DNA of 64,000 bases from Punctularia strigosozonata HHB-11173 SS5 (taxonomy: Eukaryota > Basidiomycota > Agaricomycetes > Corticiales > Punctulariaceae). Below the pieces are notes generated by a model. That model saw only the letters and a program-made list of their open reading frames with translations, did not search any database and was not told the DNA's origin. Made by a program: the position numbers and the translations under genes. The stretch covers positions 140,272-204,271 of the forward strand of contig NW_006767453.1 in the NCBI RefSeq assembly GCF_000264995.1, in the 5' to 3' direction. Of the stretch, positions 15,773-64,000 are shown piece after piece; the first letter of the stretch is position 1; each line of letters begins with the position of its first letter.

Positions 15773-16041
15773 GAGGGGTATGATAGATAATTCATGGTAT
15801 TTATAGAATTGAGAATGTACTAACAACACGGCGGAACTGTTAATGGGATGTGATCGACGTTAGGCTATCTGGATGGGGTATTTGCAGCTCATCCCTCCTC
15901 ACAAACGCGTGTCAAGGCGGTGGTATTACGCTAATAATCTTACATGCGGATCGTAATACTGGAATTGTACCTTAGTGCAGACAAATACAGATGAAAACAG
16001 AGTCGGCCGTTGCAGCGGTAAATGGACAAGCCGATTGGAGT
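15773..16041. other. 3' flank of SNT2-like gene running into the duplicated contig end
   Basis: Short non-coding stretch after the SNT2-like stop. From 15977 the sequence is identical to the start of the block after the gap (17212 onward), so this is where the contig-end duplication begins. No independent gene is seen. Confidence 0.5.
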
Positions 16042-16891
16042 TTAAGCTTTGACGCGCTTGTAGAATAGGACGTACGCCGGTTTACCCTGACATTCTGATA
16101 AGCAGCTACACAGGACCAAGGTCGCTGATTACTTACGACCACTTCTTTGGGATCAGCCTGTACGACCCGGCTGTCGTCGCAGTAAAGCCATTGGTTGCGG
16201 GAAGATATGAACGCGGTGTCTGCTCAGAACGTGAGCTGTGACTGGAGTAGCGTGAATGCGGATGATACGCACAGTGCCCGCTACTGAGGCTGCCGAAGTG
16301 GTTCGTGACGGCGTAAAGGTCATACTTGTAAGGGGGTATTTGACGTCTGGGATCGTCCAAGGATAACTGCTGGGCACCTGGTATCCCATTGTCCACGCCC
16401 GGCGGCAACGGCGGCGGCATGTAGTTCGTCAAATCTAATCCCTTGGTCGGGAAGTCGACAAACGTCTCAATCTTGTCAGCCGCGGCTCCCTTGGATGAGA
16501 ACCGCTTGAGGTGGATGAGTAGGATGGGCGGCAAGCGGGATAGTGATAGCTGCTTGGTTGCTCGACGGAGTGCTTTGCAATGTGGGCAATTCCTACAACA
16601 TTCGATTGAATGACCGTACACCGGCGCGGAACAATAAATACGCACCATGCATCGGACTTTTCCATGATCTCTTCCTTCACGAACGCGTCCAGGCACTGCT
16701 GCAGGGTGACCTTGCTAAGCCGGCCGGTGGGCACAGGCAGGGTTAGGTACATGAACGTGTTGTACGTCGTCGATGTGTTCTGGCACGTCAGGCACTGTAG
16801 CCGATTCCGGAATTGACCTTGGAAGAAGTCCACGATCAGGCTATCGTTGCGCATGCGGTAAATGTGCCATTCTTGCTCGCTCGCGATCTGT
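15977..16891. repeat. Left copy of a 915-bp direct duplication flanking an N gap (assembly overlap)
   Basis: Every base I compared from 15977 to the gap matches 17212-18126, the first 915 bases after the gap, in the same orientation. The copy ends exactly at the N run and its partner starts exactly after it. That is the pattern of two overlapping contig ends scaffolded as a gap, not of a biological tandem duplication. It contains the last exons of the deubiquitinase (minus strand; copy stop at 16042-16044) and would be mis-annotated as a second truncated USP gene. Confidence 0.9.
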
Positions 16892-17211
16892 NNNNNNNNN
16901 NNNNNNNNNNNNNNNNNNNNNNNNNNNNNNNNNNNNNNNNNNNNNNNNNNNNNNNNNNNNNNNNNNNNNNNNNNNNNNNNNNNNNNNNNNNNNNNNNNNN
17001 NNNNNNNNNNNNNNNNNNNNNNNNNNNNNNNNNNNNNNNNNNNNNNNNNNNNNNNNNNNNNNNNNNNNNNNNNNNNNNNNNNNNNNNNNNNNNNNNNNNN
17101 NNNNNNNNNNNNNNNNNNNNNNNNNNNNNNNNNNNNNNNNNNNNNNNNNNNNNNNNNNNNNNNNNNNNNNNNNNNNNNNNNNNNNNNNNNNNNNNNNNNN
17201 NNNNNNNNNNN
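16892..17211. other. Scaffold gap (320 N)
   Basis: A run of N. Because both edges carry the same 915 bases, the true distance is probably negative (an overlap) and no sequence need be missing here. Confidence 0.97.
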
Positions 17212-18126
17212 GCAGACAAATACAGATGAAAACAGAGTCGGCCGTTGCAGCGGTAAATGGACAAGCCGATTGGAGTTTAAGCTTTGACGCGCTTGTAGAA
17301 TAGGACGTACGCCGGTTTACCCTGACATTCTGATAAGCAGCTACACAGGACCAAGGTCGCTGATTACTTACGACCACTTCTTTGGGATCAGCCTGTACGA
17401 CCCGGCTGTCGTCGCAGTAAAGCCATTGGTTGCGGGAAGATATGAACGCGGTGTCTGCTCAGAACGTGAGCTGTGACTGGAGTAGCGTGAATGCGGATGA
17501 TACGCACAGTGCCCGCTACTGAGGCTGCCGAAGTGGTTCGTGACGGCGTAAAGGTCATACTTGTAAGGGGGTATTTGACGTCTGGGATCGTCCAAGGATA
17601 ACTGCTGGGCACCTGGTATCCCATTGTCCACGCCCGGCGGCAACGGCGGCGGCATGTAGTTCGTCAAATCTAATCCCTTGGTCGGGAAGTCGACAAACGT
17701 CTCAATCTTGTCAGCCGCGGCTCCCTTGGATGAGAACCGCTTGAGGTGGATGAGTAGGATGGGCGGCAAGCGGGATAGTGATAGCTGCTTGGTTGCTCGA
17801 CGGAGTGCTTTGCAATGTGGGCAATTCCTACAACATTCGATTGAATGACCGTACACCGGCGCGGAACAATAAATACGCACCATGCATCGGACTTTTCCAT
17901 GATCTCTTCCTTCACGAACGCGTCCAGGCACTGCTGCAGGGTGACCTTGCTAAGCCGGCCGGTGGGCACAGGCAGGGTTAGGTACATGAACGTGTTGTAC
18001 GTCGTCGATGTGTTCTGGCACGTCAGGCACTGTAGCCGATTCCGGAATTGACCTTGGAAGAAGTCCACGATCAGGCTATCGTTGCGCATGCGGTAAATGT
18101 GCCATTCTTGCTCGCTCGCGATCTGT
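17212..18126. repeat. Right copy of the 915-bp gap-flanking duplication
   Basis: Partner of 15977-16891. This copy is continuous with the rest of the deubiquitinase gene on its right, so it is the one to use for annotation. Confidence 0.9.
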
Positions 18127-37396: not shown

Positions 37397-38353
37397 GATG
37401 TGGAGAGGTCTCGGGGGATGGTACGAATCCTCGTTTGACACGATCCTTCTATACATACCTATACATACGGGAAAAAACGGCCTCGTGTTCTACATCCCTA
37501 GCTCAGGGGCTCAGGTAATGCAGGTACAAGGTTTACCTAGAAGGGATGCGGATTGCACTGTGTGCGAGATATACAGAGAATGCTTTGCAACGTGTTCTTA
37601 TCATCGAGAATCGAAGACAAACCTTACCGTCATCTGGTATCCATACCCGTTAATCAGCTTGTTATCCAACGAAGATTAATGGCCGACGACCACCCGCACT
37701 GACCGTGGCGGCAGACAGCTCGAGACATTGTAGTTCTGAGCCTGCAGCAGGAGCATGTGTACATTACTAGCACTAACATAATGCAGCAGTGTGCGGTATC
37801 TCCATTCTACGATCTCAGGGCAACTGGGTTTTGTCTTCCCGAACAATTGGCTCTCCGCTATCAGAGGCAGCAAGCTTGACAAATGGAAGAAGCGGATGCG
37901 CAAAAATTGAAGCTTCGATGGATACGATCTCCACTGTCGAACTCGGACTCGCCTCGAAGACTCACTGCTTGACGCGTTTTCTCGTGCGCCTGCCATTTTG
38001 AAAGCCGTCATCCGTGCCCGGATTGTATGGAAGAGGATGACGACTGGTTCTCGGCTTGGCGCATTGATTGGGTCTATCTGGAGATAAAAATTGTGAGGTG
38101 CATTCTACCTATACTATATGAGATCATCACTTCGGCCACATCGTCGAATCGGCCACCCTGCTATATGTCGTGCTCCGCTGCGTTTTTTGGCCCCATACTC
38201 TGACTGTGTTCATGTAGTGTACTCTCAGTGACATCCCAGGAATAATATCCTGAGTTACATTGCTCGAGAGTGTGGTGGACGACACTGTCCAAGTAACGCT
38301 GCGTGATGAGGTGCCGACAATGCCGGATGACAGCCGGGCGGAGTTTTAATACT
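37397..38353. other. 1-kb region without a recognised gene
   Basis: Open frames on both strands (for example 37,676-38,011 minus and 37,920-38,090 plus) show no domain. The plus-strand region near 37,990-38,130 reads somewhat protein-like but has no clear start or splice sites. It could be a decayed fragment. Confidence 0.35.
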
Positions 38354-38698: not shown

Positions 38699-39016
38699 TG
38701 TAAGTTAGGCGTAAGGGGGGCGAGGCGGGCGGTGGCGGTGTCACGACGCGCCTCGCAGGCAACAGAGCAGGATCCGGTAGTATAGCAAGAATGAATGTAG
38801 ATACAGGCGTGCAATCGAGTCTTTATAGTCGAGACGCCATAGATATCAGAGATAATCATATCTCAGATATCAGGCGCCCGGGGAGTAGAGGTAAGCACGC
38901 AAGGTTTGACCATATGGCGCCCAACGGGCGCGTCAACATTGTGATTTCTCAGTCGCGGCGGAGCCGCGACCATTCTAAGTTTACTCTACGGCTAAGCTAC
39001 GGAGTACTCCGTTACA
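38699..39016. mobile_element. Solo LTR-like element, 318 bp, with 5-bp target duplication
   Basis: The insert begins TGTAA and ends TTACA (TG..CA type ends). The same five bases GTTTT lie immediately outside both ends (38,694-38,698 and 39,017-39,021). This is the signature of an LTR-retrotransposon LTR left as a solo copy. It holds no coding region. It contains several short hairpins: a GATATC-centred pair near 38,844, GCGCCC/GGGCGC near 38,921, GTCGCGGC/GCCGCGAC near 38,952 and GGAGTACTCC at the right end. The family (Copia or Gypsy) cannot be told from an LTR alone. The intact target duplication suggests a fairly recent insertion. Most of it is repeated at 39,638-39,939 by the assembly overlap. 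Confidence 0.65.
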
Positions 39017-39267
39017 GTTTTCGACCAGCCACTGAGTGCCTACAGAACCAGAGAGGACGTCGTCGGGCTGGTGCAGGCACTGCACATCAACGACAAGGGC
39101 CCTGTCTGGGCAATCATCCCAAGGATTCGTGAACATCTCGAGACACACCAAGATCTTGCTTCGAACCCTCGCTTCACAGGCCTATTCAAGCTCTCCAGAT
39201 GCTCCGCCCATGGAGCCCGCCCCAAATCCACCCCATATCCAACACCTCTCGAGACACATCGAACAGA
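38715..39267. repeat. Left copy of a 553-bp duplication flanking the second N gap (assembly overlap)
   Basis: Matches 39,638-40,191 throughout, apart from one missing base close to the gap edge (ACACAT versus ACAACAT). It ends exactly at the N run. A single difference in the low-quality last bases before a gap points to a read-end error and an unmerged contig overlap. Confidence 0.88.
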
Positions 39268-39637
39268 NNNNNNNNNNNNNNNNNNNNNNNNNNNNNNNNN
39301 NNNNNNNNNNNNNNNNNNNNNNNNNNNNNNNNNNNNNNNNNNNNNNNNNNNNNNNNNNNNNNNNNNNNNNNNNNNNNNNNNNNNNNNNNNNNNNNNNNNN
39401 NNNNNNNNNNNNNNNNNNNNNNNNNNNNNNNNNNNNNNNNNNNNNNNNNNNNNNNNNNNNNNNNNNNNNNNNNNNNNNNNNNNNNNNNNNNNNNNNNNNN
39501 NNNNNNNNNNNNNNNNNNNNNNNNNNNNNNNNNNNNNNNNNNNNNNNNNNNNNNNNNNNNNNNNNNNNNNNNNNNNNNNNNNNNNNNNNNNNNNNNNNNN
39601 NNNNNNNNNNNNNNNNNNNNNNNNNNNNNNNNNNNNN
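39268..39637. other. Scaffold gap (370 N)
   Basis: A run of N between two copies of the same sequence; probably a negative gap. Confidence 0.97.
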
Positions 39638-40191
39638 GGGGGGCGAGGCGGGCGGTGGCGGTGTCACGACGCGCCTCGCAGGCAACAGAGCAGGATCCGG
39701 TAGTATAGCAAGAATGAATGTAGATACAGGCGTGCAATCGAGTCTTTATAGTCGAGACGCCATAGATATCAGAGATAATCATATCTCAGATATCAGGCGC
39801 CCGGGGAGTAGAGGTAAGCACGCAAGGTTTGACCATATGGCGCCCAACGGGCGCGTCAACATTGTGATTTCTCAGTCGCGGCGGAGCCGCGACCATTCTA
39901 AGTTTACTCTACGGCTAAGCTACGGAGTACTCCGTTACAGTTTTCGACCAGCCACTGAGTGCCTACAGAACCAGAGAGGACGTCGTCGGGCTGGTGCAGG
40001 CACTGCACATCAACGACAAGGGCCCTGTCTGGGCAATCATCCCAAGGATTCGTGAACATCTCGAGACACACCAAGATCTTGCTTCGAACCCTCGCTTCAC
40101 AGGCCTATTCAAGCTCTCCAGATGCTCCGCCCATGGAGCCCGCCCCAAATCCACCCCATATCCAACACCTCTCGAGACAACATCGAACAGA
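39638..40191. repeat. Right copy of the duplication flanking the second N gap
   Basis: Partner of 38,715-39,267. It includes most of the LTR-like element and the SAP-like coding segment, which here continues to a stop at 40,252-40,254. Confidence 0.88.
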
Positions 40192-40254: not shown

Positions 40255-41096
40255 TCACTACAGTACATGCTCATATCATATTGTGAATCTCTTTCTTTAT
40301 TGTTACCTGCACATACTATTCATTACTGTAGCGTACATCTTCGTAATCGACCGCAAGTTTCAGCTTGGTACGACGGCGCGACGACGAATCGGCCACCTCG
40401 AGCGGAGTACGAAATCTTTGAGCGTGGAGGTGTGACGTGTGTGTGACTGGCCGATTCGACCATCCGGCCGAAGAGACGATATCATATAGTACTCGAGCGC
40501 AGCGTGGATGGTTTGTGGGCTATACACATTGAACTATGATTTAGGGCGGGCTCAACGAGGTCCACTCCTCACGCTGCATCTAATCCGTCAACAGAATCGG
40601 TGGCAAGCCTTCTCGCAATACTCGAATCTCATTTCCGCCTCGGACATCGTTCTCGTTGATTTTGCTCCAATTTTGGCCCACCACCGCGCGGGACCCAGCT
40701 CAAGTTTCTCGCTTCATCTATTTCGGACACTACTAAGCATACACGGGCGTGGTACGATCAAGAAGTTTGTAGGTAGTACAATTCGATAGCAAAGGATTGT
40801 TTGATATACGCTAGTATCAAGCCTATGTCGACGAAGCGCCAACACATAACAGGAGCCAGCGCTAATATACATTTAGGGTACCTTGTCCGTAACAGGAACG
40901 GGTAGTGAGGACGACCCATTCAGACAGCAAGGAGTGAGAGCTCGAGAAGCAGTTGGAAAGCATCGACGTAAAGCAAGACTACAACACTGATGGGCGTTAA
41001 ATGCGCCGACGATGGGGGAGATGAATGTCGTGGGGGACGGAAAGGCTGACGAGAGTCCATTGAGATGCAGATGACAACGACGATAGCCCGATGCGT
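40255..41096. other. 0.8-kb region without a recognised gene
   Basis: AT-richer stretch near 40,260-40,350, then short frames with no domain. Probably the 3' flank of the SAP-like gene and of the second zinc-finger gene. Confidence 0.4.
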
Positions 41097-44815: not shown

Positions 44816-46365
44816 ATGTTCTGCAAAGTCACTCTCCTCGCTCTCGCTCTCGTACTGGTTGGATCCGCCTCCCCTGTGGTGCATGATAACCACGGCGTCC
44901 GCATCCCCATGTCGCGACGCAGTGGTATCACCACCGTCAACGGCGTAGTCGATCAGTCCAAGCTGAAGGCAGCCACGGCCAACGCCATCAATAAGCATAG
45001 GCAGAACTTGCTCAACCTCCTGCATAACGTAGGAAGGCTGCCCAAGGTATGCGCGCGTCGTCATGTCAGCATCACCCCCAACGAACTGATGCCGATTACC
45101 TCTTCAGGGAGCGCACGTCAAGGAATTGGTCACGGTTCCCCCGCCTTCCGGCAAGAAGCGCCAAAGCGAAACGCTCACAGACGTAGGCGACGCAGAATGG
45201 ACTGGCGACATCACCATCGGCACTCCGGGTCAACCTTTCGTGGTAGATTTTGACAGTACGTGCTGCAGTCTTCGGATCTACGCTCATGATATCAGGGTCT
45301 GATGCTGCACGACAGCGGGATCCTCTGACCTCTGGGTCCCATTCTCCACTTGTTCAAGCTCGACCTGCACATCCAAGAACAAATATACCGCGCACCAGTC
45401 CTCCACGTCCTCCAAGAAGGACGGCACATTCACGATCGAATACGGCGATGGCTCTACGGTTTCCGGGCCCGTCTACACTGACACTGTCGTCGTCGGTGGG
45501 GTCAACGTCACCGACCAATACTTCTCCCCTGTCACCAAAGACACAAGCACCGTTTCCGGTGATCCGTCCGATGGGTGAATACCTTCGACGGTTTAGACGT
45601 ATTGACACCGATTGAACCTTCGTATGTTTCAGGATCATGGGTATGGCCTGGCCAGCCATCTCGCAACTCGGCCACAACCCCGTCGTGAACAGCGCGTTCA
45701 AAGCAGGCGCGATCCCCGCCGAGGTCTTCGGCATGAAGCTCGCGTCCAACAACTCGGAGCTCTTCCTCGGCGGGACGAACAGCGTGCTCTACACGGGTTC
45801 GATCGAATACCACGCCATTGACACCTCCAGCGGTTTCTGGCAGGCGCAAGGGGCGAGCGTGTCGGTGGGATCCAAGACCGTGGTGCAAAACTTTGACACG
45901 TAAGCCTTTGGATAGCCGCGTGAATGCACACGAGCTTATATGCGTGCCGCATAGCATCATCGACAGTGGGACCACCCTCATGTACGGCCCGCCCTCGGCC
46001 GTGAAGGAAGTGTACGGGTCCATCTCGGGTTCTTCCGTCGTGGACGAAGAGGAAGGGGCGTACGCGTTCCCGTGCGACTCCTCGCCTACGGTCTCGTTCT
46101 CGTGGGGCGGCAAGCAATGGACCCTCTCCGCAGACAGGCGAGTTCTTCCCTCGCAAGCAACCACCTGACAGAACGCTCATGGGTCATTCGTAGCTTCAAC
46201 GCGGGCGAGACCGAGGAAGGCTCGGGTCAGTGCGTCGGGGCTCTCTTGGGCCAGGACATCGGCTTCGGCGATAACGTCTGGCTCCTTGGGGATGCGTTCA
46301 TGAGGAACGTCTATACCGCGTTCTCCTTCACGGACAGCTCCGTTGGCTTCGCCGAGCTGGCGTGA
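44816..46365 (+). CDS. Secreted aspartic protease 1 (pepsin family A1, polyporopepsin-like)
   Basis: Extracellular acid protease. The ATG at 44816 gives the signal peptide MFCKVTLLALALVLVGSASP. A propeptide (SKLKAATANAINKHRQNLLNLL) and the mature enzyme follow. The first catalytic Asp lies in VVDFDT/GSSDLWVP across an intron, the flap is IEYGDGSTVSGPVY, and the second catalytic Asp is IIDSGTTLMYGPPSAV. VWLLGDAFMRNVYTAFSF..VGFAELA ends the protein at 46365. At least six introns. All catalytic residues are present. It is about 60-70 percent alike by eye to the protease at 49.6 kb in the same orientation, with the same intron positions, so the two look like a local duplication. Confidence 0.92.
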
Positions 46366-49631: not shown

Positions 49632-51135
49632 ATGTTCTGCAAAGCCACCCTGTTCACCCTCGCTTTGGCGTTCGCTGCCTCCGCCTCGCCCGTCGAGCGC
49701 GACACCGGCGTCCGCGTTGCTTTGCCTAAGCGCAGCGCCCTCACCAAGGCCGACGGCACCTTCGACCACGCGAAGGCCGTCGCTGCCTCTGCGCGGACTC
49801 TCAACAAGCACCGTCAGAACCTGATCAACCTGCAACGCAACACTGGTAGCCTGCCCAAGGTAATCAATCATACTCAAATAACTTCCGGACTGAGGCTAAC
49901 TGAACACTCTTTTTCTTTCAGGGTGCCTCCATCAAGGAGCTCAAGGAGGTCCCTACCGTCGAGAAGCGCCAGAAGGAGAGCCTCACCGACGAGGACTCCG
50001 ATGAGGAGTGGGCTGGCACGATCTCTATCGGCTCCCCCGCTCAGAAGTTCCTCATCGACTTCGACAGTAGGTTTCGTTCTTCTTGTATGTTACAATATGT
50101 GCTCAACTGTCAATCTCCTAGCCGGCTCGTCTGACCTTTGGGTCCCCTCGTCGTCCTGCTCTAGCTCGACTTGCTCGTCCAAGAGCAAGTACACCGCGTC
50201 CAAGTCGTCCACGGGCTCGAAGAAGAGTGGTACCTTCGAAATCGAGTATGGCGATGGCTCGACCGTTTCCGGCCCCGTCTACACCGAGGACGTCACCGTC
50301 GGTGGTGTCAGCGTGACGGGCCAGTACTTCTCCCCGGTCACCACCCTCTCTTCCAGCTTCAAGGATGACCCCATCGACGGGTAAGCGCCGCTGAATCCAG
50401 CAATCGCGTTACCAGTCTAACATCCTCCGCGACTAGTCTGCTCGGCATGGCCTGGCCCCTGATCTCCAACCTCGGCAAGAACCCGTTCTTCAACACCGCG
50501 GACTCGGCCGGCGCCGTCTCGTCCAACGTCTTCGGCATGAAGCTCGCCTCGTCCGGCTCGGAGCTCTACCTCGGCGGCACCGACAGCTCGCTCTACTCGG
50601 GCTCGATCGAGTACCACTCCATCGACACCTCCACCGGTTTCTGGCAGGCGACCGGCGCGAGCGTCAAGGTCGGCTCGAAGACGGTCGAGAGCGACTTTGA
50701 CACCATCATCGACTCGGGCACGACCATCATGTACGGCCCGCCCTCGGCCGTCAAGGCCGTGTACGCCGCCGTCTCCGGCTCCGCCGTGTACGACTCCTCG
50801 GAGGGATACTACTCCTACCCCTGCGACTCGCCCCCGACCATCTCCTTCAACTGGGGCGGCAAAGACTGGGAGATCTCCTCGGAAAAGTGAGCCCTCCCCC
50901 CGAAACCCGTTCGCGCTGACTGCATATCCCATCGTTGCTGACTCTCCTGCGCGCCATTCTTAGCCTCAGCCTGGGTGAGACCGAGACCGGCTCGGGCAAG
51001 TGCGTCGGCGCGCTCGCCGGCCAGGACCTCGGCCTCGGCGACGACGTCTGGCTCCTCGGCGACAGCTTCATGAAGAACGTCTACACCGCGTTCTCCTTCT
51101 CCAAGAGCTCCGTCGGCTTTGCGGAACTCGCTTGA
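49632..51135 (+). CDS. Secreted aspartic protease 2 (pepsin family A1, polyporopepsin-like)
   Basis: Extracellular acid protease, paralogue of the gene at 44.8 kb. The ATG at 49632 gives the signal peptide MFCKATLFTLALAFAASASP and a propeptide with ASARTLNKHRQNLINLQ. The catalytic Asp lies in LIDFDT/GSSDLWVPSSSC, the flap is IEYGDGSTVSGPVY, and the second Asp is IIDSGTTIMYGPPSAV. The C-terminal VWLLGDSFMKNVYTAFSFSKSSVGFAEL ends at 51135. Six introns at the same places as its paralogue. Very high GC3 suggests strong expression compared with paralogue 1. Confidence 0.94.
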
Positions 51136-59460: not shown

Positions 59461-60653
59461 TCATCGGCTCTTCGCTGCTGGACTCATCATGAGCTCTCGA
59501 CTGTAGAATCTCTCCCAAGGAACGGGTTCCGCAAGATACGGGTTGGAAAAGAGAAAAGACACAAACGACGCTGGAGGTAATTCCGCGGAGCTGCCTTCTT
59601 CCTTCGCCTCCATCACCTTGTCCGAGTCTCCTCCACCAATGTGGTACTGGGATAGAAGGGTCTTTCGGGTGCGGCCGGTGTCAAGTTCTGCCCGGTGAGC
59701 CCAAGATGTACGGCTTGAATCCAGAAGTAATGGAACTTGCGCGCGTCGGTTTGAGTCTTAGTCATGGCCAGATAGTGCTGAATGCCGTCGAAAATTTCGT
59801 CCTTGCCTTTCTGACGACCGCGGAGCTTCAGTAGAACCTAGGCAACACGCAAATGGGTGTAGTGATCCCAAGAGGGTTAGTCGGCGGCCTTGAATTGCTC
59901 CAAGAACCGCTCATCGGGCATATTGGCTTCATCTGCGATTGCACGTTTCACGTATCGCGGGACGCGGTCCGTAGTCGTAGTTTGACCGTCCTGAAGAGCC
60001 GTCGTCTGCGGATTACTTGTGGTGTCCGAGCTCTCCTCCCTTGGCGCCGATCCGTCACAGAGCGCTTGGCAGAGCCTTCTGAGGGCAGCTTTGACGCCGA
60101 CGTCCTCGGTGCTGGCAATGGACACGGGGATCATGTTCCACGAACATCCCTGGCATGCGGCGGAGAACGTGGCATGGAGTTCCGAGATACGTATGGCGTC
60201 CGAGGGGTCTTGCTTGTTCGCCAGACTAGAGACTTGCATCAGCCTTCGGCGAGCTCCATGAAACGGTTTCGACACGACTCACATGAGGAACGGGATCTTT
60301 CGAGCAACCCGGGCGCCAAGCTCTCGATCGAGTCCGGTCTTCAGCTACTTGAGTTCTATGACACTTTCCTCCAGGAAGTTTCTTTCCATCGAGTCAACCC
60401 ATCCATATAACTCCAGGGAGGGAGTACCTGGGGAGGTCGCGCATGGTCCCGCTGTAACCTACACGGACGTCTCAGCTGACGAATGCGTCGTTCGAGTCCG
60501 GAAAGTGTAGCGATTCGAGGTTGATGCTGTTCGTCAGTACGCGGCCGTTTTTCGAGCAGGTATAGCAAGATAGTCTTGCCCGCCACATCGATACCTGGGA
60601 TGAGAACTTTGTGCACCCGTCTAGGGCCCTTGAAAAGGTCGAGAAATAGACTA

Positions 60654-60728
60654 CAGCTGATTCGGAAAATCATGAGCTGCGCCACTTTTTTGCGCGTTGC
60701 GTCGTGTACGAACCCTACGTTGGGGTTG
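60654..60728 (+). repeat. Left terminal inverted repeat (75 bp)
   Basis: Starts CAGCTGATTCGG next to the TA target. Complementary to 63,779-63,853 at 74 of 75 positions (G/A difference at position 52). Confidence 0.95.
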
Positions 60729-60778
60729 TCTGTGTCAAGAGCGCAGACACGCCAGCGATACACGTTGATACGCTCCCC

Positions 60779-61906
60779 ATGGGCTTCCGAACGATTAGTG
60801 ACGACGTCAAACTACGTGCTTTGCATCTGATTGACAGGGGACTCGAACGCGAAGCGATATGTAGCATTCTTGGCGTGTCTCTTGCTAGCTTGACACGATG
60901 GAAACACAATTTTGAGGAACATGACTCCCTTGCTCGACCTCCCCGGTCCATTCGTGGCCGACCCTCTCGGACGACGGGCGAGCAGCGGTCCGACATCCTG
61001 AATCTACTTATAGAGGCTCCAGACCTCTATCTTGACGAAGTCCAGCAGTGGCTTGCTATTGCCCACGAATTGGCTCTCTCGAAGACCGCGATTCATGACC
61101 TCATCAACGACTCTGGCTATACCTACAAGAAGCTGCAGAAGTCTGCCATTGAGAGGGATGAAGGACAACGGGCTACGTGGCGTCAGACTGTGCAGCAACA
61201 CTTGCGTGCGCGGATGATCGTCACGGTTGACGAATCAAGCAAGGACGGGCGGACTCTGTGTCGGGTTTACGGTCGTTCGCAGGAAGGGGATCGAGCTCCG
61301 ATGGCAAATCCTTTGGCCAGAGGAGTAAGATATAGTGTTGTAGCAGCCCTGTCCCTCTCGGGATACGTGTCGACGCGTGTTGTGGAGGGCTCCGTCAACG
61401 CATACGAATTCTTTGACTTCATTGTCGAGGAAGTGGTACGTCACATCAGGAAATGCATTTGAAGTAGTCTGACGAGTGCATAGCTTCCGCGCATGAACCC
61501 ATATCCACAAGACCAGAGTGTCCTCATCCTCGACAACTGCTCGATCCACAAAATGGACACGCTACGTCGTGTTGTTGAGGGACAAGGTCTGTGTCTCATG
61601 TTGCAATCTCTCATCCCACGACGGTCCTGATGTTATGGCAGGATGCCTTTTAGTCTTTCTCCCACCATACTCACCGGATCTCAACCCTATTGAAGAGAGT
61701 TTCAGTGCATGTGCGTGTGCAATACACTTTGTCGCTCCAACTCAGTCGCTAACTTTATGCCAGTGAAGGCATGGCTTCGCAGAAGCTATCGACATCTTCT
61801 CAACAGCAATAACCCAATTTTAGATATACACGAAGCATGTGCTCATGCTGTCACTGCCGACAAGGCAATAGGCTGGTTTAGACATAGTGGTTACCGTATC
61901 GGATAA
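60779..61906 (+). CDS. Tc1/mariner-type DD34E transposase
   Basis: Cut-and-paste transposase that binds the inverted repeats and inserts at TA. The ATG is 60779-60781. Exons 60,779-61,435, 61,484-61,586, 61,642-61,710 and 61,764-61,906 join in frame to 323 aa. The N-terminus has two helix-turn-helix units (DDVKLRALHLIDRGLEREAI..SLASLTRWKHNF, then LSKTAIHDLINDSGYTYKKL) linked by RGRPSRT. The DDE_3 core has MIVTVDESSKDGRT (Asp151), VLILDNCSIHKMD (Asp236) and LPPYSPDLNPIEESFS (Glu271), with 34 residues between the last two. All three catalytic residues and all splice sites look intact. The start inside the left repeat (MYEPYVG) is possible but less likely. Confidence 0.93.
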
Positions 61907-61910
61907 TGAT

Positions 61911-63736
61911 CTACGCGCTATTCATTTTCTCCTTGTACTTCATGTTTGCCCGAACAACACTTCCCCACCCAAGCTTCTCAAATCCTTTCTCCTTCCAATC
62001 ATCCTCCGTAATCTGAGCCAAACTCATTCCAGGCTGAAATTCCATCCGCTCAAGCCGATCACGGATAGTTGATGATAGACGATACTCTGCGCAAAATTCT
62101 TCCAGCGACACTGGATCCATTACCGGTGAAGATTCCCGATCATCAAACGATCGCTTGTTACGGAGCTGTGGAGTCACGAATCCGCTGCCGCTCGGGTAAC
62201 TAGAATGGGGCGCAAAGCCAGGTGAATATGGGAATGGCATCGGCATGAACGGGAAAGATGGAGCAAATGAAGGAAACATGTATGGTTGACCTGGCGTCGG
62301 CGTAGATGGCTGCATGGAGGTAGATGGTTCCGGCGCAGCAGATACAGCAGACTTCTTCAAGGCAGTCCGGACATTGAATGTAGCAGACGGAATCTTTGGA
62401 CATACAATCGAGGCCTCGCCTCGTACCTGTACAATCTGAGTCAGATTGCAACCCCGCTTGATTGAATGCATCACATACAATCTGTGCTGCCCACGCAAGG
62501 CGTGCCGGCTCCTTCAAGTCAAAGTGAAGCTGTGATTCGTGACCAAAGAAGCATGGAATCTTGGGATGTTCTTTGCACTTTCCAATATGCCATGTCTCGA
62601 GGATCCTCTGCGCATAATGCTCGATAGGTTCATCCTTTCTTCCCCTGCTAAGTATGCTCTTCCGGTCTAAGTCTGCATCACCTTCGTCACTTGGTGAACT
62701 GCTATCGTCCGCCTTGGCGGCCCAAGTCTGGAATTCGGGCGTTAGAACTATAGACAGCAATCAGTGTGTTCACATACAGGAGTATCAGGTTTGTCTCTCT
62801 TTGGCTTTGCCATGCGAACGAAGATATTACATTGCGAAGGCTTCTTGCCGTCAAACTGCGCAAGCATTGCTCGATAGCCCTCGGGTTTGCTGAGTGGGAG
62901 GAAGGGAGCATTCTTCGGTCTGACAAATCTCCACATGAACGATGAGATTGGGAGTTGATCGACGGAACCAACTCCCTCGATCGTGTCTGCAGTTCGTGCA
63001 AGAAATGCCTCCCACGAGAAGTCCATGGGAATTTCCGCGGGGCCATCGTGATGGATGGTTTCTTTCTCCTTGGGATTTTGCGACCTTCCCCTGACACGTG
63101 TCCCAGACGAGGCTGGCACCACAATCTCGTAGTAGACATTGAATGCCTGCTCTTCTACATCATCACCACGCGGGACCGGAGGCTGTTTACCACGTCCTAA
63201 AGTTGTAGACGTACGACGGACTGCGATAGGCGTGATTGGAACCTCGAGCTCCGAGTTCGGCCATGGCGTGGCACCGCCAGTCTCTTCCAGGTCCCAATTG
63301 AATGGAGACTCGGAGAACGGATCCCCCTCTTCCTTCTCCTTCTCTTCTTCTTCTTCCTCCTCCTCCTCCTCCTCTTCACGTTGCACAAGAACATCCTCGC
63401 GGTGCTGATGGTCCTCATCACTCGAGCTCGAGTCTCTATCACTGGACAGCTCGACTTTATGGATAATCAGTCAACAATGTCATTCTGAGCAAGGACAATC
63501 TCGTACTCGGGTCGGATTTAGCAAGCGTGGGTGCCGGAAGCTTGATGAAAAGCTTCTGAGAGCCTGGAAAGGAGAGTATGAAACCCATAGATAGCAGTGG
63601 AGACCGAGAACAGCAATAGCCTCTCCATACCTGACCTCGCATTTTCCTCCTGCTCGCATGGTTCTTGATCACTTGCCCTAGCCTTGGGGGGCCGTCTGCT
63701 GCGAGATTTGGAGACTTTCGACCGTTTCGGAGGCAT
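61911..63736 (-). CDS. Second transposon gene: basic/acidic protein with SAM-like C-terminal domain
   Basis: Unknown function, carried within the Tc1/mariner element. The ATG at 63736 gives a basic nuclear-type N-terminus (MPPKRSKVSKSRSRRPPKAR). Splicing (donor GTATGG, acceptor TTCCAG) yields GSQKLFIKLPAPTL. After another intron comes IELSSDRDSSSSDEDHQH and a run of glutamates (about 63,335-63,376). A folded region follows (FNVYYEIVVPASSG, IPMDFSWEAFLART, SFMWRFVRPKNAPFLPL, YRAMLAQFDGKKPS), then RILETWHIGKCKEHPKI and a His/Cys-bearing stretch, and a Pro/Phe-rich linker. A SAM-like domain (LEEFCAEYRLSSTIRDRLER, ITEDDWKEKGFEKLGWGSV) ends the protein at 61911. About 500-560 aa. Continuity near 62,750 and 62,410 needs very short introns or small indels, so integrity is less sure than for the transposase. 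Confidence 0.72.
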
Positions 63737-63778
63737 GATTCAGTGGGCTATCGAGCGCGTACACGGTGAAACGGACGT

Positions 63779-63853
63779 CAACCCCAACGTAGGGTTCGTA
63801 TACGACGCAACGCGCAAAAAAGTGGCGCAGCTCATGATTTTCCGAATCAGCTG
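63779..63853 (-). repeat. Right terminal inverted repeat (75 bp)
   Basis: Inverted partner of 60,654-60,728, ending CCGAATCAGCTG next to TA at 63,854-63,855. Confidence 0.95.
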
Positions 63854-63869
63854 TAACTGCCGTCGCCAT

Positions 63870-64000
63870 TTGGGTTCCTGTGAGGCGAAGCTGGGGCTGA
63901 GGTGTAGAAGTCGAGTCCGTCTCGGCGTTATATCCTGGCAGCAAATACGCATTATATTAGGCTGTTTATAACACAAGCGCATGTAAGTGACACGAATACC
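63870..64000 (-). promoter_or_regulatory. Upstream region of the ARF-fusion gene
   Basis: Sequence 5' of the ATG at 63869, cut by the window edge. A TATA-like run (forward CATTATATTAGG) at about 63,951-63,962 lies some 80-90 bases upstream of the ATG. Confidence 0.3.

Follow-up and report, generated by a model that had tools for sequence, protein, structure and literature searches.

The window (the whole stretch of DNA that was analysed, 64,000 nucleotides in length) contains at bp 60654-63853 a complete-looking element of the IS630/Tc1/mariner (ITm) group, which is 3.2 kb long, is bounded by TA on each side and carries a transposase gene and a second gene, referred to as gene 2. The following features were located in the element and in its left flank.

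60356..60651, minus strand: putative start of a flanking Arf-like small GTPase gene (Pfam Arf 0.0077 and, for the joined-flank peptide, 0.0028, both below the curated cut-off; PDB Arf1 0.019)
60652..60653, no strand: TA target duplication, left copy, read from the sequence
60654..60728, plus strand: left terminal inverted repeat (TIR), 75 bp, 74/75 complementary to the right arm
60779..61906, plus strand: transposase gene, four exons (60779-61435, 61484-61586, 61642-61710 and 61764-61903) and stop codon (61904-61906), 323 aa
61907..61910, no strand: spacer of four bases that separates the stop codons of the two genes in the sequence
61911..63736, minus strand: gene 2, convergent with the transposase gene, five exons (63736-63631, 63563-63507, 63454-62778, 62727-62479 and 62435 (or 62426)-61914) and stop codon (61913-61911), 537 (or 534) aa
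61914..62162, minus strand: last 83 aa of the gene 2 product, modelled as a SAM-like bundle of helices by single-sequence AlphaFold2 (mean pLDDT 73.8)
63779..63853, minus strand: right TIR, 75 bp, 74/75 complementary to the left arm
63854..63855, no strand: TA target duplication, right copy, read from the sequence

Comparison of the two ends identified inverted arms of 77 nt (60652-60728 and 63779-63855) with a single mismatch, made up of the 75-bp TIR and of the TA target, which is itself a palindrome; the repeats and the TA on both sides had been reported in a preliminary description of this DNA made from the letters alone. The match is far above chance, because the three remaining inverted pairs in 60400-64000 are only 15-20 nt each. 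TIRs at both ends and a TA target duplication, the latter as read from the occupied allele alone, are features by which ITm elements are recognised, and both are present; a single transposase ORF, which is typical of such elements and not strictly defining, is not what was found, as gene 2 occupies 63736-61911. No terminal repeats or nested ends were detected inside the element, and on these grounds it was not read as two elements joined or as one inserted into another. Hairpin folding of the TIRs was unremarkable (z -1.15), and Rfam gave no match at gathering thresholds in 60400-64000. Scans for sigma-70 promoters (2 found, 2.2 expected) and for terminator-like sites (4 found, 1.8 expected) use bacterial patterns and were set aside as evidence.

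No second copy of the element and no MITE was found elsewhere in the 64-kb window, where the best match to the TIR had E=0.57 and the best matches to the proteins had E values of at least 1.8. Searches of viral_contigs returned 600 pattern stretches for gene 2, none of them a relative, and no matching stretch for the transposase; searches of genome_contigs returned 20 pattern stretches for the last exon of gene 2 and 21 for the transposase, again with no relatives among them. The terminal 18 bases of the TIR matched one contig of viral_contigs (L001), which was taken as chance, as similarity beyond these 18 bases was at chance level only. Neither a copy lacking gene 2 nor a stand-alone gene 2 turned up in these searches.

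The exon ends of the transposase gene were inferred from GT..AG boundaries and the reading frame, and the spliced frame encodes 323 aa without an internal stop. Its product contains an N-terminus matched by several helix-turn-helix (HTH) Pfam families and a DDE_3 catalytic domain (Pfam, E=2.8e-27). Residues D151, D236 and E271 were invariant in an alignment of three sequences that included two bacterial IS630 transposases (L003 and L004); a third candidate (L002) was left out because its annotated stretch contains stops. The spacing of 34 residues between D236 and E271 is that of the DD34E group, to which the preliminary description had already assigned an intact-looking 323-aa protein. Translated searches (tblastn) of plasmids matched 922 records, all at less than 60% identity, and the ten listed were annotated IS630 family transposases, 28.7-34.4% identical. 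Three PDB sequences were matched at E<=1, namely two chloroplast ribosomal proteins (0.42 and 0.62) and Sleeping Beauty (0.67). Judged from its domains and residues, the assignment of the transposase to the ITm group, DD34E, is safe. Among the matches listed, the bacterial IS630 transposases are the closest, and they differ from this element in that no second gene was present in the three stretches viewed (the match with 100 bp on each side). Bacterial IS630 elements have no introns, as is usual for bacteria.

Gene 2 is an uninterrupted spliced reading frame that occupies the rest of the element, and its introns of 67, 52, 50 and 43 (or 52) nt are all of the GT..AG type. The abundance of short introns suggests that the host is a fungus. 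The ATGs of the transposase gene and of gene 2 lie 50 bp and 42 bp, respectively, inward of their TIRs. The convergent arrangement, the position of the second ATG (63736) inward of the right TIR and the separation of the two stop codons by four bases all agree with what the preliminary description had reported.

Several analyses were used to assess the coding capacity of gene 2. Of 20000 mononucleotide shuffles per exon, 0 were stop-free for exon 61914-62435, 1 for exon 62778-63454 and 244 for exon 62479-62727. The codon score of the gene 2 frame was the highest of the three on its own strand under all three training sets, and it was tied with that of the in-phase antisense frame (-0.115/-0.116, 0.001/0.008 and 0.002/-0.009), so that codon scores back the phase of gene 2 but not its strand. 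When the host segments were each left out in turn, their own frame outscored the other five in 4/4 cases; the transposase frame was outscored by its own antisense under host training (-0.157/-0.085). The longest opposite-strand open frame listed wholly within gene 2 has 89 aa. In a first coding control, 0/470 random segments scored as well as gene 2; this control was weak and was set aside, because stops were penalised, the segments were not selected for open frames, and other open frames in the window reached scores per codon of up to 0.065, above the 0.039 of gene 2.

GC3 was nearly the same in gene 2 (0.525) and in the transposase gene (0.529), and was higher in four short host segments of the window identified by Pfam (BAH, aminotransferase, aspartyl protease and ribosomal L5), in which it was 0.634, 0.750, 0.822 and 0.847 when listed by increasing value. 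The 24 listed open frames elsewhere in the window, which are mostly unproven, had GC3 values of 0.448-0.793. The agreement of gene 2 with the transposase gene, below the four host segments, argues against recent capture of a host gene, within the limits of a small host sample. On the basis of its long stop-free exons and of a GC3 matching that of the transposase gene, gene 2 is very probably real. The TIRs, the catalytic triad, the stop-free exons and GC3 together support the earlier view that the ITm element looks complete and that its second, convergent gene is probably genuine.

The second protein is predicted to consist of a basic N-terminus, an acidic poly-Glu tract, a Pro-rich linker and a SAM-like C-terminus. 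The IELSSD stretch and the poly-Glu tract noted previously are present in the translation; the basic start, the acidic tract and the IELSSD stretch may be motifs of the nuclear-localisation or SUMO-interaction type. The whole protein matched 0 Pfam families at E<=1, and searches with pieces of it yielded only weak matches to Nop14 (E 0.3) and KIF1B (0.61), both on the acidic stretch. Two acetyltransferase sequences in PDB (E 0.45) were dismissed. Searches with the C-terminus found 0 Pfam families and 0 PDB sequences at E<=10. Mushroom genomes may contain multi-copy hypothetical proteins with a C-terminus similar to that of the second protein.

Structure prediction was carried out with the C-terminal 83 aa folded alone, and the AlphaFold2 model contained helices at residues 20-26, 31-39 and 53-61 and a long helix at 66-82. 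Compared with the five-helix SAM fold, the model has four helices of at least four residues and one 3-residue turn (pLDDT 73.8, pTM 0.53). Foldseek returned 27 chains at E<=10 with this model, of which 17, including ranks 1-11, were SAM domains by description, and none was significant (best E=2.0, highest probability 0.60). Of the SAM-like C-terminus in the preliminary description, the order of helices thus stood in the single-sequence model, but the fold matches were non-significant and neither Pfam nor PDB gave a match. The model hints, with moderate confidence, that the C-terminus may be a SAM-like helical bundle. A beta-grasp (PB1-like) reading of the middle region encoded by exon 3, made by eye, was tried, and the model of that region was too poor to judge it (pLDDT 46.6).

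Tec elements occur in the genus Euplotes. Tc1/mariner is the textbook case of a transposon for which its own transposase is typically sufficient. Two sources describe Tc1/mariner elements as typically having one ORF and a size of about 1.3-2.4 kb (PMC7325037, PMC4188875). The element described here shares with such one-gene DD34E elements the TA target, the TIRs, the HTH and DDE_3 transposase and the 34 residues from the second D to E; it differs from them in its length of 3.2 kb, its second convergent spliced gene and its 75-bp TIRs. The premise of the preliminary description that canonical Tc1/mariner elements carry one gene therefore holds as a rule, but not for the ciliate TBE and Tec elements, which belong to the DD34E elements of the Tc1/mariner group and have three ORFs according to PMC7325037 and PMC12242761. 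The same sources describe the TIRs of TBE (Oxytricha) as about 80 bp long, its accessory ORFs as being under purifying selection, its extra ORFs as encoding a zinc-finger/kinase protein and a 22-kDa protein, and the extra product of Tec as a site-specific recombinase (PMC7325037, PMC12242761); PMC12242761 terms the accessory proteins of TBE surprising for Tc1/mariner. The likeness to TBE and Tec lies in the extra genes, and the difference in three ORFs as opposed to the two genes found here; no recombinase or zinc-finger/kinase domain was found in gene 2, which had 0 Pfam families at E<=1.

Accessory genes beside the transposase are also a feature of other fungal DNA transposons. According to PMC12730594, Kyakuja, Zisupton, Plavaka, IS3EU and others in mushrooms, rusts and morels are DNA transposons that bear TET/JBP genes. 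They differ from the present element in belonging to other superfamilies and in their accessory gene, as gene 2 contains no TET/JBP domain by Pfam; the word 'mariner' occurs 0 times in the main text of that paper. Tc1/mariner elements with several genes are already known from ciliates, and other DNA transposons of mushrooms are already known to carry accessory genes. A Tc1/mariner element with two genes in a fungus was not found among the matches listed in a search of titles and abstract beginnings, the scope of which left most subscription journals outside. For Marasmius oreades, PMC9674265 names a mariner family with a length of 3,972 bp and, in the text consulted, does not give its gene content; this length, which would leave room for a second gene, is a lead only.

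We consider it fairly probable that the element is a potentially autonomous ITm DD34E cut-and-paste transposon belonging to a lineage that stably carries two genes. The best explanation of gene 2 would then be that its product is a dedicated partner of the transposase, as suggested by the layout and the matched codon composition. Since the ATGs lie only 50 and 42 bp inward, each TIR with its short leader probably carries or adjoins a promoter, and each would supply or adjoin the promoter/leader of the gene facing inward from it. The transposase would bind the TIRs and excise and insert the element at TA. The second protein, with its basic N-terminus, acidic tract and putative SAM-like oligomerisation module, may be a nuclear, chromatin- or complex-associated accessory that aids the transposition of the element itself or its persistence against silencing. 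As the stop codons are 4 bp apart, the two transcripts must either overlap at their 3' ends or end within the opposing coding sequence, and overlapping antisense transcripts would be expected from the abutting 3' ends. A more specific proposal, which we advance tentatively, is that a fungal ITm lineage exists which cannot move without a second subunit, a chromatin-associated SAM-domain protein, and whose tail-to-tail, TIR-driven genes have a central antisense overlap.

If a dedicated partner exists, the element would represent a Tc1/mariner system of two components outside the ciliates, and no published example of such a system was found in the literature searched. Retention of a second gene in a fungal lineage would imply that some hosts make a helper necessary, be it for targeting, for repair or for escape from silencing. 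The two genes would in addition form a compact pair for testing, unlike the ciliate TBE, for which PMC12242761 gives more than 34,000 germline copies.

One version of the dedicated-partner explanation, plausible in outline and doubtful as it stands, is that gene 2 serves silencing escape or regulation, for example by binding chromatin or SUMO-modified host factors, and not the transposition reaction. The acidic tract and the IELSSD stretch, the latter resembling a SUMO-interaction motif, would fit such a role, but resemblance of a motif proves nothing. The TET/JBP genes carried by mushroom DNA transposons are thought to counter methylation (PMC12730594), which would also be in keeping with silencing escape; in gene 2, however, neither a TET/JBP domain nor that of any other enzyme was found, with 0 Pfam families at E<=1.

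Somewhat less probable, and on the whole unlikely, is a one-off or young capture, in which a one-gene element came to enclose a host gene within its ends, so that gene 2 would be confined to this copy or a few siblings. Just one copy was identified, with no other in the window, and Tc1 elements are generally single-ORF elements with a mean length of ~1300 bp (PMC7325037), both of which are compatible with capture. Against it, gene 2 fits its space exactly, from an ATG 42 bp from the TIR to a stop 4 bp from that of the transposase gene, no host flank of its own is visible, and its GC3 equals that of the transposase gene and is lower than in the four host segments, a small sample beside unproven window frames of 0.45-0.79. 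That gene 2 is not functional, being either open frames strung together by chance or what is left of a decayed gene, is very improbable: it has no Pfam or PDB homologue, its antisense codon score is equal and some other open frames of the window score higher per codon, but two long exons lack stops although hardly any shuffle does (0 and 1 of 20000), the GT..AG introns are in frame, the C-terminus is helical in the model and the longest opposite-strand frame listed within it is short (89 aa).

The insertion site was analysed by joining the flanks across one TA, upon which an Arf-like minus-strand frame runs on to an ATG in the right flank. The resulting 49-aa peptide matched Pfam Arf (0.0028), and Arf1 ranked first (0.019) among 42 PDB sequences at E<=1. 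The same peptide without its right-flank residues matched Arf equally well (0.0024), and the Arf homology is thus confined to one side. Further along the Arf-like reading, frame changes and stops were seen by eye, and two pieces of it gave no Arf match; the gene has likely decayed, introns being the alternative. The element, with its own two genes open, appears to sit at the 5' end of an Arf-like gene that is dead or dying. Its CpG observed/expected ratio was 0.97. The ratio for the remainder of the window was 1.11, and 19 equally sized blocks gave 1.03-1.24. The element thus has the lowest CpG ratio in the window, with mild depletion at most and no heavy CpG decay.

Elsewhere in the window, a 915-bp perfect direct repeat was found at 15977-18126 around a run of 320 N (16892-17211), which is most likely a scaffolding duplication and not biology, and a 554-bp direct repeat of 99.8% identity at 38715-40191 around a run of 370 N (39268-39637) is an artefact of the same type. 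A 44-bp inverted repeat (86%), which begins TACTATATG, is located at 38112-38155 and 40448-40491, about 2.3 kb apart around the gap at 39268-39637, and its arms are possibly the ends of another DNA transposon. The regions 45314-46365 and 50120-51135 are about 70% identical and are probably a paralogue pair, because an open frame for an aspartyl protease overlaps the latter of the two.
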